Assembly: GCA_030652805.1 (NCBI GenBank)
Contig: JAUSPT010000101.1
Coordinates: forward strand, 1 to 21,018
Source: a bacterium
GTDB lineage: Bacteria; JAHJDO01
Direction of reading: 5' to 3'
DNA: 21,018 bases
A program made the translations under genes and the position numbers. The notes beneath the pieces were generated by a model. That model worked only from the letters and a program-made list of their open reading frames with translations, did no database searches and was not told the DNA's origin. Positions 3,894 to 14,632 of this stretch are shown piece by piece. The first letter of the stretch is position 1, and every line of letters begins with the position of its first letter.

Positions 3894-5040
3894 TAATCAA
3901 CTTTTTTAATCTATCTATTCCTGAAATAATCCCTACTTCAATTCTGAGAACCAGTATTTCAAGATTCTTAATATTCAACCTTTGCAACCTTACTGCGTCT
4001 TTTTGCGTAGTAATGATAAATTTTACATTAAGCGCTTTTTGCCTCGCCTGTATGTTATCTATATCCTTTTTTGCGTACCAATAATGGTCAGGATACCTAA
4101 GCTTTTCTACTATTTTGGCTCCAACATGTTCCAATGTGTTCTCAAAAGATACTGGATCTCCAAGGCTTGAAAGCGCTATTACCTTTTCCCCCTTTATACA
4201 TTCAATATCCAGCTGCTCTTCTCCAGCAATACTTTTAAAACATACAGGCTTATGAATAGTGGTTATGACTTGTGCTGAGCTGTTAATATCAAGAAGCCTT
4301 TTCTTAATTATCTCTGTATCCTTAATCATATCAATTTTTGTTATTATAAAGCAATCTGCTCTTTTTAAACACTTATATGGCTCACGTAAATTTCCCCTTG
4401 GGAAAACATATCCATTACCAAAAGGACTGGAAGCATTTATAACTACTATATTTATATCTCTATGTAAGCGCCAATGTTGGAAGCCGTCATCTAAAACTAC
4501 TATATCTACGTTGAACTTTTCTTCTGCGATTTTTCCTGTTTCATATCTATTCTTGCCAACAAAAACAACTGTGCTTTTCAGGTTCTTTGCTAAAAGATAT
4601 GGCTCATCTCCTGCTTTTTCTACATTACACAAAATCTCTTTTCCATTAGAAACAAGTTTTATATCACTCTCTCCGACTCTTCTGTATCCTCTGCTCAATA
4701 CTGCAACTTTTTTCCCTTTTTTAATAAGCATATTCACTAGAAGTTCTACAACAGGAGTTTTACCAACTCCTCCCAATGTTATGCCTCCAATACTTATAAC
4801 TTTTGAGGAGAGTTTCCTTTTCTTTAGAAGATTCATGGAATACATAAAAAGCAGCATACTCTGGCCAATAATCACTAAAAATGAAATAAAGAAGAGACAT
4901 AGTTTTAGTAAGCTATGTCTTCTATTATCAGACACTATATTTCTATAAAAAAAATCGTGCCAATATCTACCAGACCATGGACCATAGACCATAGACCATA
5001 GTCTTTCACTGCGGTCTGTCGTCTGTGATCTGTCGTCCAT
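3883..5040 (-). CDS. lpxK: Tetraacyldisaccharide 4'-kinase, with a repeat-derived N-terminus
   Basis: LpxK phosphorylates the 4' position of the lipid A disaccharide at the inner membrane. The family's P-loop, GGITLGGVGKTP, is at about residues 85-96, followed by VAVLSRGYRR, the VVLDDGFQHWRLHRD motif and FPRGNLREPYKCLKRAD. A hydrophobic anchor helix lies at about 45-70. At 385 residues it is longer than the E. coli enzyme (about 330). The surplus is at the N-terminus, where roughly residues 1-23 are translated from heptameric repeats (4973-5038) and have no relation to LpxK. ATG 5040 lies 4 nt after the nrnA stop. ATG 4992 (residue 17) is another possible start, still inside the repeat. It overlaps the downstream glycosyltransferase by 11 nt. 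Confidence 0.92.
   Translation of the reverse strand: MDDRSQTTDRSERLWSMVYGPWSGRYWHDFFYRNIVSDNRRHSLLKLCLFFISFLVIIGQSMLLFMYSMNLLKKRKLSSKVISIGGITLGGVGKTPVVELLVNMLIKKGKKVAVLSRGYRRVGESDIKLVSNGKEILCNVEKAGDEPYLLAKNLKSTVVFVGKNRYETGKIAEEKFNVDIVVLDDGFQHWRLHRDINIVVINASSPFGNGYVFPRGNLREPYKCLKRADCFIITKIDMIKDTEIIKKRLLDINSSAQVITTIHKPVCFKSIAGEEQLDIECIKGEKVIALSSLGDPVSFENTLEHVGAKIVEKLRYPDHYWYAKKDIDNIQARQKALNVKFIITTQKDAVRLQRLNIKNLEILVLRIEVGIISGIDRLKKLINAI
4973..5038. repeat. Heptameric repeat at the 5' end of lpxK
   Basis: Plus-strand units GACCATG, GACCATA, GACCATA and GACCATA run without gaps from 4973 to 5000. A second heptamer series follows after a short spacer: TCTGTCG, TCTGTGA, TCTGTCG (about 5014-5034). 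The whole segment is read in frame as the first residues of LpxK. It begins within 10 nt of the nrnA stop codon. Confidence 0.8.
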
Positions 5041-5044
5041 AGTA

Positions 5045-9631: not shown

Positions 9632-11546
9632 GAAATTTTTCAATAGCTTTTCTTATTTTGTCTTCCTCTTCAATCTCCTCTCTTGAGAATATCTTATAAA
9701 CTTTATAATACCTATTCTTATACTTTAATTCGAACTTTTTCAGTTCTTCAGGTTTGAATTCAAGTTTAAAAGCAGTTGTTGCTTCATCAAATCTTAAATT
9801 GCCCGTTATATACCTCCATGAATACACTCCTCTAGTAATATAAGTCCCCATTGTATAAACAAGATAATTTGTGTCCCTACCCTGACAGAATCTCCACAAC
9901 TCAGTTTCATCTCTTGAAAACATTGAGTACATATAATTCTTTATTTTATTTCTTATATCATCCGACTCTACTTTTGCATGAATTAATACAGGTCTGTCTG
10001 CATACAACCTTATAAATCCTGCTACTGAAAAGTTTGTTGCAATAGGACTATCTTCAGGAGTGTTCTTTTTAAGCCATTTGCATACATCCATTAGGGATGA
10101 AGGATGTTCAATAAATCCAAGTTTTTTGCAAATATGAGCTGTCTTTATATATTCAAAAGGCAGGAACATTAGAAGTAAAGCCGTAACCAGATTAACTATC
10201 TTTGATTTAAATTCGGGCATTTGAGTTTCGGATTTCGGATTTCGGATTTCGGATTTTTGGGGTATGCACTTATATATAAGGGAGATAGAACAACATAAGA
10301 AGAAGATTAGAAAGACTCTCATCCTTGCAAAAAGAAGATACAGAATCAGAAAAAGAAACGTTAAACATACAAAAAGGATATCCTCTTTTGTCGACCTTCC
10401 CTTACAACATTCTTTACAAAACAAAACAACTGCTACTAGCGCAATAAAAAGAGTTGAGCTAAAAAAAGTTACTATCTCTATAAGCGAAGGTGTAATATCA
10501 GCAGGTAACCACATAAAATTTACATCAAAAGGCAAAAGAGCTGGATTAGCTGGTTTTACTCCCAAGAATCTGAGTTTGTAGAGAAATAGAGATGTTATAT
10601 GAGAGTATGTACCAAACTGATTTTTTAGCACAAAAGAATTAATAACCTCTAAAAAAGCAAATACGCCAAGAAGCAATAATAATGTTTTTAATCCATTTAA
10701 TCTCTTCAATTTCATCAGGAAAGCTTTCAGGACGGCAATTGCAACTATAGAATATCCAAAAAACATCACATGACTGTAGAGAAATCCTATCTCTCTAAGC
10801 CTTATGTTTGTAAAACCTGCAAACATCATGAATAAAAGCCCTATAAAAACAAATTCTAAATAATTTGAGCTGCTCTTACTGTATATAATTAAAAACGCTA
10901 CTGAACAAAATAAAATCCCCAAATAGAGTTGGGTAAGATCCCATGATATAACAGCAACATAAAGCAATAATCCAGCCAGAATTGATAAAAACAGCCTTGT
11001 TTTGTATCTAGGCTGATTTGAAATAAAAAACAGCAAACTTAAATTAAGGAATATAAGCGGTAAAGCAAAAGTCTGTTTGAGAAAAATTTCTCCTGTAGTT
11101 TCCAGCACAGAAGGAAGCATTACTCCATAATATGCTGAGGAAATTAAAGCTGCAACCCGATTTTTAGAGACATTATATGCCAATATAAAAACTGCAATTA
11201 TACTCAATGAAAAAAGTAAAGGAATGATGTGTCTTATAAAACTAGTTAGTTGAAATTTACCCAGAAATGTTGAAATTCTATACAGATATCCATAGAAATA
11301 TTCCATAAAAACAAAAACTTTCTTTCGAATATTAATGTTTTCTGGATATTGAATTTTATTGTCTATAACAGGCAGGCTACCTGTCTCAGCAATGACTTTG
11401 GTGTATATAAAATGAGGAGCAGATTCATTAGAAAAAGGGAGAGAACCATAAGCCTCTGCTCTGTGGTCAAGTATCTGAAATCTTATAAATATAGAGATTA
11501 GATATACTAAGAATATGGCAAAAAATACTACATATTTTCGATACAT
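9609..11546 (-). CDS. Polytopic GT-C-like membrane protein, STT3/oligosaccharyltransferase-related
   Basis: This 645-residue protein has about a dozen hydrophobic segments (residues 5-22 and about 105-465) and a soluble C-terminal domain of about 175 residues. The first outer loop, ESAPHFIYTKVIAETGSLP followed by YPENINI, resembles the acidic donor-binding loop of STT3/AglB proteins. The C-terminal domain starts with SPIATNFSVAGFIRLYADRP, where STT3 proteins carry WWDxG; here that motif is absent. I therefore propose a lipid-linked-sugar transferase of the GT-C superfamily with uncertain activity. Residues 429-446 are encoded by a heptameric repeat (10211-10260) in a hydrophilic loop between membrane segments. 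It lies between rho and nusA with repeats upstream. No ribosome-binding site is clear at ATG 11546. Confidence 0.6.
   Translation of the reverse strand: MYRKYVVFFAIFLVYLISIFIRFQILDHRAEAYGSLPFSNESAPHFIYTKVIAETGSLPVIDNKIQYPENINIRKKVFVFMEYFYGYLYRISTFLGKFQLTSFIRHIIPLLFSLSIIAVFILAYNVSKNRVAALISSAYYGVMLPSVLETTGEIFLKQTFALPLIFLNLSLLFFISNQPRYKTRLFLSILAGLLLYVAVISWDLTQLYLGILFCSVAFLIIYSKSSSNYLEFVFIGLLFMMFAGFTNIRLREIGFLYSHVMFFGYSIVAIAVLKAFLMKLKRLNGLKTLLLLLGVFAFLEVINSFVLKNQFGTYSHITSLFLYKLRFLGVKPANPALLPFDVNFMWLPADITPSLIEIVTFFSSTLFIALVAVVLFCKECCKGRSTKEDILFVCLTFLFLILYLLFARMRVFLIFFLCCSISLIYKCIPQKSEIRNPKSETQMPEFKSKIVNLVTALLLMFLPFEYIKTAHICKKLGFIEHPSSLMDVCKWLKKNTPEDSPIATNFSVAGFIRLYADRPVLIHAKVESDDIRNKIKNYMYSMFSRDETELWRFCQGRDTNYLVYTMGTYITRGVYSWRYITGNLRFDEATTAFKLEFKPEELKKFELKYKNRYYKVYKIFSREEIEEEDKIRKAIEKFLARSSKL
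10211..10260. repeat. Heptameric TTTCGGA repeat inside the STT3-like gene
   Basis: Four perfect TTTCGGA units occupy 10226-10253, flanked by ATTCGGGCATTTGAG and TTTTTGG that look like part of the same element. It is translated in frame as PQKSEIRNPKSETQMPEF (residues 429-446), a hydrophilic loop between two membrane segments. Confidence 0.8.
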
Positions 11547-11550
11547 AATT

Positions 11551-11635
11551 TTTAGTATTAAGTAGTAAGAATTAAGTAAAAACCGCCACGCATTATAGAC
11601 TTAATCCTTAGAGCGAAGCGTCTTAATACTTAATC
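11551..11635. repeat. Inverted heptameric repeat between the STT3-like gene and rho
   Basis: Left arm units are TTTAGTA, TTAAGTA, GTAAGAA and TTAAGTA (11551-11578). The right arm has CTTAATC and CTTAGAG (11600-11613), then CTTAATA and CTTAATC (11622-11635), which are reverse-complement versions of the same unit. It fills nearly all of the 94-bp gap and begins 5 nt from the rho stop codon. Confidence 0.75.
11592..11597 (-). promoter_or_regulatory. Isolated perfect -10 box upstream of the STT3-like gene
   Basis: TATAAT on the minus strand lies about 45 nt before ATG 11546. No recognisable -35 is found 16-18 bp upstream; that region is repeat sequence. Weak evidence for a promoter. Confidence 0.2.
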
Positions 11636-11640
11636 CTGTT

Positions 11641-12909
11641 TTATACTTCAACCTGATTCATGGTTTCCATAAACTTTCTATTTGTTTTGGTCTTCTTCAA
11701 TTTCTCAATTAAGAATTCCATTCTTTCTGTTACACTCATTGAAATCAACACCTTACGCAATAACCAAATCTTGCTCAGATCTTTTTGATCTATTAAGAGA
11801 TCTTCTTTCCTTGTTCCTGAACGTTCCATATCAATAGCAGGGAAAACCCTCTTATCCACAAGCCGCCGATCCAGATGGATTTCCATATTCCCCGTTGCTT
11901 TAAATTCCTCAAAAATCACATCATCCATCCTGCTACCTGTATCAATCAGCGCTGTTGCTATTATTGAAAGGCTTCCCCCTTCTTCTATCTTTCTGGCAGC
12001 AGCAAAAAACCGCTTTGGTTTATGAAGAGCATTAGAATCCACGCCTCCTGAGAGAATTTTCCCGCTATGCGGCACCAGCACATTATATGCTCTGGCAAGT
12101 CTTGTAATACTGTCAAGCAATATAACTACATCTTTTTTGCACTCAACTAATCTTTTTGCTTTTTCAATCACCATTTCAGCCACTTGCACATGACGCTCAG
12201 GAGGTTCGTCAAAAGTCGAGCTTATTACCTCTCCATTAACAGAACGCTGCATGTCTGTGACTTCCTCCGGCCGTTCATCTATTAACAATACTATTAAAAC
12301 CACTTCCGGATGATTCCTTGAGATACTGTTTGCTATTTTTTTGAGAAGCACGGTCTTCCCTGCTCTTGGAGGAGATACTATTAATCCTCTTTGCCCTTTT
12401 CCTATAGGAACTAGAATATCCATGACCCGCATAGATATTTCATCAGGATCTGTCTCAAGTACAATTTTCGGCTGCGGAAAAATCGGGGTGAGACGATCAA
12501 ATTTAATCTTTTTTCTTGCAGTCTCCGGGTCGTCAGAATTTACTTTTTCTATCTTAAGTAAAGCAAAATATTTTTCGCCTTCCTTTGGAGGTCTGATCTC
12601 TCCTAATATCAAATCGCCTGTATGAAGGCTAAAACGGCGTATTTGCGATGGAGAGATATAAATATCATCAGGACATGGAAGATAATTGTAGTCTGAGGAC
12701 CTCAAGAACCCAAATCCTTCATTTAATACCTCAAGAACCCCTTCCCCGTAAATATGTCCGTCTCTTTTTGCATGTTCTCTAATAACTTTTAAAACCAGTT
12801 CCTGTTTAGGGAGGCCACTGTTATCTTTAATTTTAAGTTCTTCGGCTATTCCCTGAATTTCATCAACATCCATCCTTTTAAGTTTTATAACATCCAAACG
12901 TTTATTCAT
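11641..12909 (-). CDS. rho: Transcription termination factor Rho
   Basis: Rho is the hexameric RNA helicase that ends transcription of untranslated RNA. The N-terminal domain carries the cold-shock-like primary RNA site ([18 protein letters not shown]). The ATPase core has Walker A SPPRAGKT (about residues 179-186), Walker [15 protein letters not shown], and the conserved [18 protein letters not shown] region. I start it at ATG 12909 (422 residues): an AAGGAG lies 8 nt upstream and the ATG overlaps the coaE stop as ATGA. ATGs at 12915 and 12927 would add 2 and 6 residues and sit on or before the ribosome-binding site. Its mRNA is coupled to coaE. Confidence 0.97.
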
Positions 12910-13517
12910 GTGCATAACTCCTTCCATATTTTTTTGACTTGTTTTTCTGTTTCTTCTAATCCGTTATTGTTATCAATTATAAAATCGGAAAATCTCTCCT
13001 TTTCTTTTATTGACAGCTGCGCATTTATTCTTCTGCAGGCTTCTTCTCTGGTTAAAGATGATCTTGCTCTTAATCTTGCTATCTGATTCTCCATACCTAC
13101 AGAAACTACTATTAACTTATCAACAAGCGAGGTAGCTTCTGCTTCTACAATAAGAGGCGCGTTAATAATAGTTACATTTCCTTCGTCATTGCGAGGCGTA
13201 GCTGAAGCAATCTTTTCCTTTATAATCTTAATAATTTCCGGGTGCATTATACGATTAAGATACTCAAGCTTCTTTCTATCCTTAAAAACAATATCTGCTA
13301 ACCTTTTTTTATCAATCCTCCCAGAGTTATTAAGAATATCCCTGCCAAAGAAGCCAACTATCTTTGCAGGAACATTATTCCTATTAATCCTAGCATTTAT
13401 TAAATCATTTGCAATTTTGTCTGCATCTATTATCTCTGCACCAAGATCAGCAAACATTACAGCTACTGTATCTTTCCCCGAAGCAATCCCGCCGGTTAAG
13501 CCAACTACCTTTAACAT
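12906..13517 (-). CDS. coaE: Dephospho-CoA kinase
   Basis: CoaE phosphorylates dephospho-CoA with ATP, the last step of coenzyme A synthesis. The P-loop [12 protein letters not shown] lies at residues 6-17, followed by [18 protein letters not shown], the NAPLIVEA segment and the C-terminal [15 protein letters not shown]. The length of 203 residues is normal. Residues 102-113 ([12 protein letters not shown]) are encoded by a dispersed repeat (13181-13216) and lie in a loop between a helix and the next strand, where the E. coli enzyme is a few residues shorter. Its stop overlaps the rho start as ATGA. No strong ribosome-binding site precedes ATG 13517. Confidence 0.95.
13181..13216. repeat. Dispersed repeat inside coaE (CGTCATTGCGAGG type)
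   Basis: CTTCGTCATTGCGAGGCGTA followed by GCTGAAGCAATCTTTT matches, from memory, a repeat class that occurs between genes in many unrelated bacterial genomes. Here it is in frame within coaE and supplies residues 102-113. The match to other genomes is recalled, not searched. Confidence 0.6.
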
Positions 13518-13590
13518 ATAATTTCTAATTGTTAATTTTAAATTTTCAATGAATCTTTAATTTCAAAATTGCTAAACTATTTTTTTGTTT

Positions 13591-13620
13591 CCCTCTCTTC
13601 TCAAGAGAGGGTCAGAGTGA
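13591..13620. repeat. Hairpin-forming intergenic repeat (CCCTCTC type)
   Basis: CCCTCTCTT and AAGAGAGGG form a perfect 9-bp stem with a 3-nt loop (13591-13611), followed by TCAGAGTGAG. The T-run lies before the stem on the plus strand and becomes an A-run after it on the minus strand, so it is not a normal terminator for either direction. The 13518-13590 remainder is AT-rich with AATTT/AAATT-like units and no gene. Confidence 0.55.
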
Positions 13621-13621
13621 G

Positions 13622-14485
13622 TTACGTCAAAATCAGTTTATTAAACCCCAATTCCGCAAAAAGCCTGTTAACTTTACTCCTGTCAAAATCTTCCCTAAAA
13701 ACTTTCGAACCACAATCCTCCCAGCATATTTTGATGGGAACATCTACCCTGAGACAAACCAATCTTTTACTTAATTCTGCTTGATGAGAGAACTGGCTCA
13801 AATTCTTTCTAATCCTTTCGTTCGGTATTTTATCTATGTTTTTCAAAACCCCTTCTAGGTCACCGAACTGTTTAACTAGTTTTGACGCTGTTTTTTCTCC
13901 AATCCCCATAACTCCGGGAATATTATCAGAGCTGTCCCCTCCAAGAGCCGCAATATCAACAAGCTTTTCAGGCTCAACACCATATTTTTCACGAACTTTG
14001 TTCCTATCAAAAACAGCTCCTTCTTTAACAGAGCGTATAATCCCGATATTGTCAGTTGCAATCTGCAGAAGGTCTTTATCGGGACTCATAACAAATACAT
14101 CAAACCCATTCTTCTCTCCCTCTTTGGCAATGGTAGCAAGAATATCATCCGCCTCATATCCTCCCAGCTCAAAGATAGGAATATTTAAAGAGCGTATAAC
14201 CTCTTTAAGTATCGGAAACTGGATAATCAGATCATCCGGCGTTTTAGGACGATTCGCCTTATAAGAAGCAAATTCCTTGTGCCTGAAAGTAGGCTCCGGC
14301 AGATCAAAAACTACTCCAATATAATCCGGTTTCTTCATGCGCAATATTTTCATAAGACTTACAGTGAATCCATACACAGCATTTGTCGGCAGCCCTTCCT
14401 TCGTCTTCAGTTCCCTTATAGCGTAAAAGGATCTGTAAGCATACGAATTACCATCTATAAGATATAACGACTTTTTCTGACTCAT
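13622..14485 (-). CDS. Standalone 5'-3' exonuclease (PolA N-terminal domain type)
   Basis: This flap/5' nuclease acts in primer removal and repair. Conserved metal-site segments are all present: LIDGNSYAYRSFYA (residues 8-21), the YKANRPKTPDD lid region, GGYEADDILA, MSPDKDLLQ and GGDSSDNIPGVMGIGEKTA, the last leading into the helix-hairpin-helix. It has 287 residues and stops where full-length DNA polymerase I would continue into its proofreading and polymerase domains. The following 104 bp up to coaE hold a repeat and no polymerase remnant. It is either a natural single-domain nuclease (like B. subtilis YpcP) or a polA cut at its 3' end. It lies downstream of the secretin gene, separated by a 157-bp repeat-rich gap. 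Confidence 0.88.
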   Translation of the reverse strand: MSQKKSLYLIDGNSYAYRSFYAIRELKTKEGLPTNAVYGFTVSLMKILRMKKPDYIGVVFDLPEPTFRHKEFASYKANRPKTPDDLIIQFPILKEVIRSLNIPIFELGGYEADDILATIAKEGEKNGFDVFVMSPDKDLLQIATDNIGIIRSVKEGAVFDRNKVREKYGVEPEKLVDIAALGGDSSDNIPGVMGIGEKTASKLVKQFGDLEGVLKNIDKIPNERIRKNLSQFSHQAELSKRLVCLRVDVPIKICWEDCGSKVFREDFDRSKVNRLFAELGFNKLILT

Positions 14486-14519
14486 TGCTAGTAAATATTC
14501 AGTGAACTCCGTTGAAGAA

Positions 14520-14632
14520 AAATCCGAAACAAATTAGAAATCTCAATTTTCAAAATTCAAAACATTGTTTCGAGCATTTGTATTTTGGTAATTTGAATTT
14601 GTTTCGTGCTTCGTATTTCGTGCTTCGAATTT
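14520..14632. repeat. Intergenic repeat between the secretin and nuclease genes
   Basis: Heptamers TTCGTGC, TTCGTAT, TTCGTGC and TTCGAAT run from 14603 to 14630. An 11-bp inverted pair, CGAAACAAATT (14525-14535) and AATTTGTTTCG (14596-14606), encloses a 60-nt AT-rich middle that has weaker internal symmetry. It fills most of the 157-bp gap 14486-14642. I see no promoter or terminator in the rest. Confidence 0.75.

Follow-up and report, generated by a model that had tools for sequence, protein, structure and literature searches.

Four heptamer sites in one contig

The stretch of DNA analysed here, referred to as the window, comprises 21,018 nucleotides of contig JAUSPT010000101.1 (assembly GCA_030652805.1) from a bacterium of the JAHJDO01 lineage. 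It carries four short sites composed of heptamers in tandem. A first-pass annotation of the window had described these sites as sharing a 7-bp unit length but not a sequence, and had attributed them to a common generating mechanism, such as slippage or a templating enzyme, rather than to descent from one element. All four sites were found in place; tandem arrays at them were called by running Tandem Repeats Finder on the window (Table 1). No curated Rfam family matched at gathering score in the window or in locus L019.

Table 1. Heptamer sites of the window and the reading frame that hosts site 2 (ORF, open reading frame)
Feature	Coordinates	Strand	Description
Site 1	4972..5043	.	'Class D' hairpin element, between a DHH/DHHA1 gene and lpxK
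Site 1 arms	4974-5001 and 5016-5043		GACCATA units; GTCTGTC/GTCCATA units
Site 2	10226..10256	-	Solo array AAATCCGx4+AAA, in frame within the Dpy19-like ORF
Dpy19-like membrane protein ORF, 645 amino acids	9609..11546	-	PF10034, E 1.4e-22; host of site 2
Site 3	11551..11638	.	'Class C' hairpin element with AGNATTA-unit heptamer arms, between rho and the Dpy19-like ORF
Site 4	14520..14632	+	Copy of the 'class A' interspersed palindrome; the right arm is four heptamers at 14602-14632

The heptamers of site 4 read TTCGTGC TTCGTAT TTCGTGC TTCGAAT and were called as period 14, that is, two heptamers. The site matches model positions 22-133 of a class A profile (E 4.7e-26), and three of the four left-arm heptamers are missing from this copy, which is exactly 21 bp. 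Site 2 shows 4.4 copies of period 7 with 100% match, reading TTTCGGA four times on the plus strand and encoding the peptide KSEIRNPKSE. The Dpy19-like family of its host is named after an animal protein, and the ORF of the window is a bacterial member.

At site 1, period 7 was called at 4972-5001 (4.3 copies, 91% matches) and again at 5014-5037. Its inverted arms, 28 nt each, are 75% complementary, and the predicted RNA fold has a z-score of -5.15 on the plus and -3.48 on the minus strand. A second full copy of class D lies at C32:77833-77901 (fold z -6.48). Site 3 is the weakest of the four. It is heptameric in two arms only (AGTATTA AGTAGTA AGAATTA AGTA and CTTAATA CTTAATC) around a non-heptameric middle; the arms at 11554-11570 and 11621-11637 are 88% complementary, period 7 was reported at 11554-11578, and the predicted fold on the minus strand has a z-score of -4.35. 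Two further copies of class C were found in the sister species G002 (L287:16085 and L287:19628).

The earlier view that the sites differ in sequence stands only in part. TTTCGGA of site 2 and TTCGTAT/TTCGTGC of site 4 are variants of one TTCG-core family. In site 1, GACCATA and TCTGTCG stand in the two complementary arms of a single hairpin. Sites 2 and 4 are one family by sequence, with site 2 a solo four-unit array like the left arm of class A. The architecture common to the sites is the heptamer arm, and sites 1 and 3 represent two further dispersed hairpin families.

Period 7 is in excess in the genome and across phyla

The sample of the window's genome covered 1.52 of 2.00 Mb (102 contigs in the genome); the initial contigs were chosen for TTTCGGA matches and the sample was then widened. 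Counting segments with a score of at least 12, we found 38 of period 7 compared with 3 of period 6 and 3 of period 8 (Fisher p 5e-13). In a 0.96-Mb subset, 23 period-7 segments stood against 0 in Markov-shuffled sequence. The same-genus sister G002 gave 22 in 285 kb, with 0, 0, 1, 0 and 0 at periods 5, 6, 8, 9 and 10; some of its regions were picked because they contained known arrays; this raises the rate per kb and affects the contrast between periods only through AAATCCG. With at most three mismatches, TTTCGGATTTCGGATTTCGGA matched the genome at 33 (overlapping) places and the reversed-pattern control at none, and CATAGACCATAGACCATAG had 11 matches compared with 1 for its control.

The first-pass annotation would have given up its shared-period claim had period 7 shown no excess over periods 6 and 8, and the claim survives these counts. 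As a column-wise mean over non-coding sequence, the autocorrelation that it had proposed as a check was uninformative (0.285 at lag 7, 0.288 at lag 6 and 0.286 at lag 8). The arrays are too few to shift this mean, and segment counts were therefore used. Chance low-complexity sequence in an AT-rich genome might be considered, as several units are A-rich. However, shuffled sequence gave no arrays, adjacent periods almost none and the reversed-pattern control none, so that a chance origin is ruled out for practical purposes.

The units are diverse. In the window's genome they include AAATCCG, ACCATAG, ACAGACG, ACTCATC, AATTCCC, AAATGGG, AAAAATC, AAAATTC and others. A scan of GTDB contigs for TTTCGNNx4 returned at least 120 stretches from many phyla. 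In the 878 kb of matches listed, with the selecting arrays excluded, 118 further arrays of period 7 were present, with dozens of units, whereas periods 6 and 8 gave 10 and 12 arrays, respectively; these loci were picked through one heptamer family and are not a census. A shared period in the absence of a shared sequence thus holds genome-wide and across phyla, which points to a common cause of the period.

Arrays of four units prevail, as had been noted for several of the window's sites. Of the 17 perfect arrays in the window's genome that reach 21 bp or more, 14 measure 29-35 bp, whereas this is the case for 26 of 83 (31%) in the listed loci of other phyla (binomial p 2e-5; the 17 arrays include repeats of the same family and are not fully independent). 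Many arrays also have an inverted partner. Within 150 bp, such a partner was found for 110 of 303 arrays among the cross-phylum matches listed, where ~10 were expected (both arms of a pair are counted separately and the selecting arrays are included), and for 11 of 59 arrays in the window's genome, where ~2 were expected.

Class A is a dispersed palindrome with heptamer arms

Class A is an imperfect palindrome of 133 bp with ~18 high-scoring copies in the 1.52 Mb and about as many in the G002 sample; its profile was built from four copies, and the alignment holds 31. The left arm consists of four heptamers in nearly every copy (AAATCCG AAATCCG AATATCG AAATCCG AAACAAAT...), and the right arm of three to five. 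Near-full-length matches occur in Phycisphaerae, Planctomycetota, Kiritimatiellales, Desulfobacterales and a further deltaproteobacterial metagenome-assembled genome. The left-arm 27-mer AAATCCGAAATCCGAATATCGAAATCC is identical in G002 and G004, both of the same genus, and also in two genomes of other families, G005 and G033. Several class A copies are shared at orthologous sites, and many are present in one sister species only. One orthologous pair (L102:6400 and L290:10632) has one and four left heptamers, respectively, an exact 21-bp difference as in the copy of the window. A small palindrome module, CATCCCGATAATGTCGGGACAAAT or close to it, lies directly after the heptamer arm in L271 (G004) and L273 (G005).

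Arrays are retained or replaced between sister species

Orthologous places were compared between species that are ~90% identical, with flanks mostly 80-97% identical. The number of units at orthologous sites is mostly equal and seldom changed. Site 1, the arrays in CobT, IspG and PyrK, and several class A copies are shared with equal unit number between G000 and G002; AAATCCGx4 in CobT, IspG and PyrK is perfectly conserved between the two, and the IspG and XerC arrays are kept in G004.

At other places the array itself is different. Site 2 is replaced in G002 by an AATTCAA/AATTAAA array, which like AAATCCGx4 is in frame. In MurB, AAAAATCx4 and AAATCCGx4 stand at the same place in the two sister species, with equal length and four units in both, and in a spacer of C36 a TCTGCCC-type array corresponds to a GTCTATG-type array of equal length. 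The spacer of site 3 holds an AAATTAA/AAATTCA array in G002 in place of class C, and the site 4 position is occupied there by other repeats. Elsewhere class D corresponds to an AATTTTG array and class A to class C. Of 18 fixed windows occupied in G002, 4 carry another array in G000 (p 6e-5); when the case formed by both arms of a single class A copy is left out, p is 9e-4.

The class D hairpin of site 1 is present in G000 and G002 and absent from G003, which is empty at this position; G001 (C164, L281) has ~1.2 kb of other DNA there. A second interspersed repeat, CATTGCGA...GAAGCAATC, lies in frame within the CoaE ORF of the window (13187-13222) and has 14 copies in the 1.52 Mb; another copy sits at the site 4 position in G002.

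Arrays in genes are in frame and lack an inverted partner

In-frame heptamer arrays were found in MurB, IspG, CobT and the Dpy19-like gene, and heptamer arrays account for the repetitive peptides SEIRNPKSEIRNPK and KNQKSKIKNQ in predicted proteins. As 7 and 3 are coprime, the heptapeptide that an array encodes is identical in all frames, and a unit that is stop-free over its seven codons is tolerated. For MurB, IspG and CobT, solved homologues were compared. The MurB array adds ~13 residues after MNAG and the CobT array yields a net gain of ~4 residues. The IspG array brings no net gain (two residues fewer than in the homologue) and therefore replaces a variable loop. The independent AAATCCG arrays located in or at genes number six, and in each of them AAATCCG is the sense-strand reading, although both strands are open (two-sided p 0.03). 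No inverted partner was found for the in-gene arrays at window position 10226 and in L025, L026 and L027.

A PyrK-like gene carries AAATCCGx4 within its iron-sulfur loop (L026:5736-5780; ortholog in G002, L292:11940-11985). In both species an apparent +1 frame shift was seen by eye just after the array (AAAAAATAAGATG), which would indicate a broken gene or recoding.

Origin of the arrays

Whole elements are imperfect palindromes, of 133 bp in class A, ~70 bp in class D and ~90 bp in class C, and single arms also occur solo. It seems probable that the four sites of the window are copies or fragments of such small interspersed elements, whose tandem-heptamer arms usually contain about four units. 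The observations behind this reading are dispersal, gain and loss between sister species, steps of 7 bp and 21 bp, in-frame residence in genes and replacement in place. Descent from an element, which the first-pass annotation had set aside, thus returns: site 4 is one of the copies of the dispersed 133-bp element, site 2 matches the left arm of that element, and two more families of dispersed hairpins include sites 1 and 3.

Such elements would be copied between loci without clear target-site duplication, and copies would persist where harm is small, as in spacers and variable protein loops. Period 7 may be kept by slippage or by gene conversion in 7-bp steps. This property of many bacteria probably has its cause in the replication machinery rather than in any single element. 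The arms would have inherited their length of four units, and in genes the reading frame would allow only changes of three units.

Several results weigh against an origin from interspersed elements. No transposition machinery was linked to them, and filled and empty class A sites, when compared, showed no target-site duplication and had untidy junctions. RNAalifold over all class A copies found neither a conserved consensus hairpin nor compensatory pairs. The palindrome may therefore be a relic of an inverted origin instead of a selected structure, and a conserved RNA structure of class A was set aside as a candidate. The re-use of sites lost its significance when only windows with few long ORFs were taken (p 0.34), and re-use of spacers may thus be mere tolerance; the in-gene cases are the strongest support for array replacement. 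Moreover, slippage, which would help to keep the period, predicts a variable copy number at orthologous sites, whereas the number is usually kept and the unit sequence can be swapped wholesale, as in MurB and the C36 spacer.

Slippage could also act alone. According to a published hypothesis, cited in PMC4679880 and PMC4692102, a chance duplication grows locally at each site, and 7 is favoured owing to how much DNA the polymerase holds. Two observations speak for it: the listed loci, drawn from many phyla, are dominated by period 7 with dozens of different units, and the class A right arms vary in 7-bp steps. The slippage proposed by the first-pass annotation accordingly finds support in dispersed copies, with right arms of 3, 4 or 5 units, but not at orthologous sites, where the unit number rarely changes. 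Independent slippage at each site nevertheless appears unlikely: unrelated loci share AAATCCGx4, entire elements of 133 bp are dispersed, and the lengths in the window's genome peak at 29-35 bp where local growth predicts a falling distribution. The idea of a polymerase contact fits the breadth over phyla; on its own it leaves the four-unit peak and the dispersed 133-bp elements unexplained. It is also improbable that the arrays are binding or regulatory sites, in which a protein or RNA reads four heptamers and selection keeps sequence and number. The conservation of AAATCCGx4 in CobT, IspG and PyrK would agree with selection, as would the retention in G004 of the arrays in IspG and XerC, and 31.5 bp would correspond to three helical turns. 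In PMC2700814, four-heptamer elements of Geobacter metallireducens are annotated as putative global regulatory elements. Yet unit sequences differ freely at orthologous places (site 2, MurB), the host genes are unrelated, and sister species differ by gains and losses of copies.

The replacement of a whole array with its unit number kept, as in MurB, could suggest a templating enzyme, either a reverse transcriptase or a terminal transferase that writes heptamers de novo, and both G000 and G002 have reverse transcriptases. This second mechanism named in the first-pass annotation is very hard to uphold: in G004 (90% complete) no reverse transcriptase was found, yet this genome carries class A copies and AAATCCGx4, and a single enzyme and template would not yield dozens of units. 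As candidates for the machinery, neither reverse transcriptase nor Y1 transposase showed a clear link; proteins of PF01797 (RAYT-type Y1 transposase) occur in 10 of 10 genomes searched and also in 5 of 14 controls. A process so far unrecognised and common to many phyla, by which a whole array is swapped in place while unit number, position and frame are kept, even in murB, is a distinctly doubtful possibility.

Comparison with known repeat systems

The ERIC, REP and REPIN families are multicopy imperfect palindromes in spacers, with ERIC measuring ~130 bp, and the Rickettsia palindromic elements are short and lie in frame in genes. Class A is ERIC-like in size (~130 bp), but its arms are tandem heptamers. 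In-frame residence in genes is shared with the Rickettsia elements, whereas the in-gene copies described here are single arms without a palindrome. Miniature inverted-repeat transposable elements have terminal inverted repeats flanked by a target-site duplication; the elements described here have imperfect inverted arms, but no such duplication was seen at filled against empty sites. REPINs are also treated in PMC3116915.

Tandem heptamers have been reported in several bacteria, among them the STRR families of heterocystous cyanobacteria. In Xanthomonas and Nostoc, the GGGAATC and GGGGA(T/C)T repeats (Rehm et al. 2015, PMC4692102) are rich in G and able to form quadruplexes; most Xanthomonas arrays have four units, 70-75 pairs of arrays are inverted and closely spaced, and sister species show sequence variation in the same spacers (PMC4692102). 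The arrays described here are alike in being heptameric, mostly of four units and often present as inverted pairs. They differ in that the units at the four sites of the window have no G-tracts, several families occur in one genome and some arrays are in frame in conserved genes. The GGACCGG family of Geobacter metallireducens, with four tandem heptanucleotides and 49 copies in and between genes (PMC2700814), is likewise multicopy and four-unit, but it is GC-rich, and we saw no replacement at orthologous sites described in the passages of that paper that were consulted. The TAACTGA repeats of Beggiatoaceae, Cyanobacteria and Bacteroidetes are intergenic tandem heptamers with a patchy distribution over phyla; they differ in consisting of a single unit upstream of start codons, with related heptamers rarely repeated (PMC4679880).

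Heptamer prevalence, a four-unit majority, inverted pairs and sequence variation of sisters in the same spacers are thus already described in other bacteria. A search of the literature for the exact sequence words gave no relevant paper. In the literature covered, mostly without subscription papers, we found no description of several palindrome families with four-heptamer arms in one genome, of their spread across phyla or of replacement within genes, and these form the new part of our results. In this genus, sister species bear different arrays of equal length at the same sites, some of them in conserved genes, so that the predictions of slippage, of copying between loci and of selection differ and can be checked.

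According to Mrazek et al. 2007, as summarised in PMC4679880 and PMC4692102, heptamers are the commonest class of long repeats in many genomes and are scattered among phyla. Bacterial heptanucleotide simple sequence repeats are recognised by an excess of 7 bp over chance and over adjacent periods, which is also found here. Unlike the repeats of that report, many arrays described here are the arms of dispersed palindromes and their lengths peak at four units, and this changes what needs to be explained.

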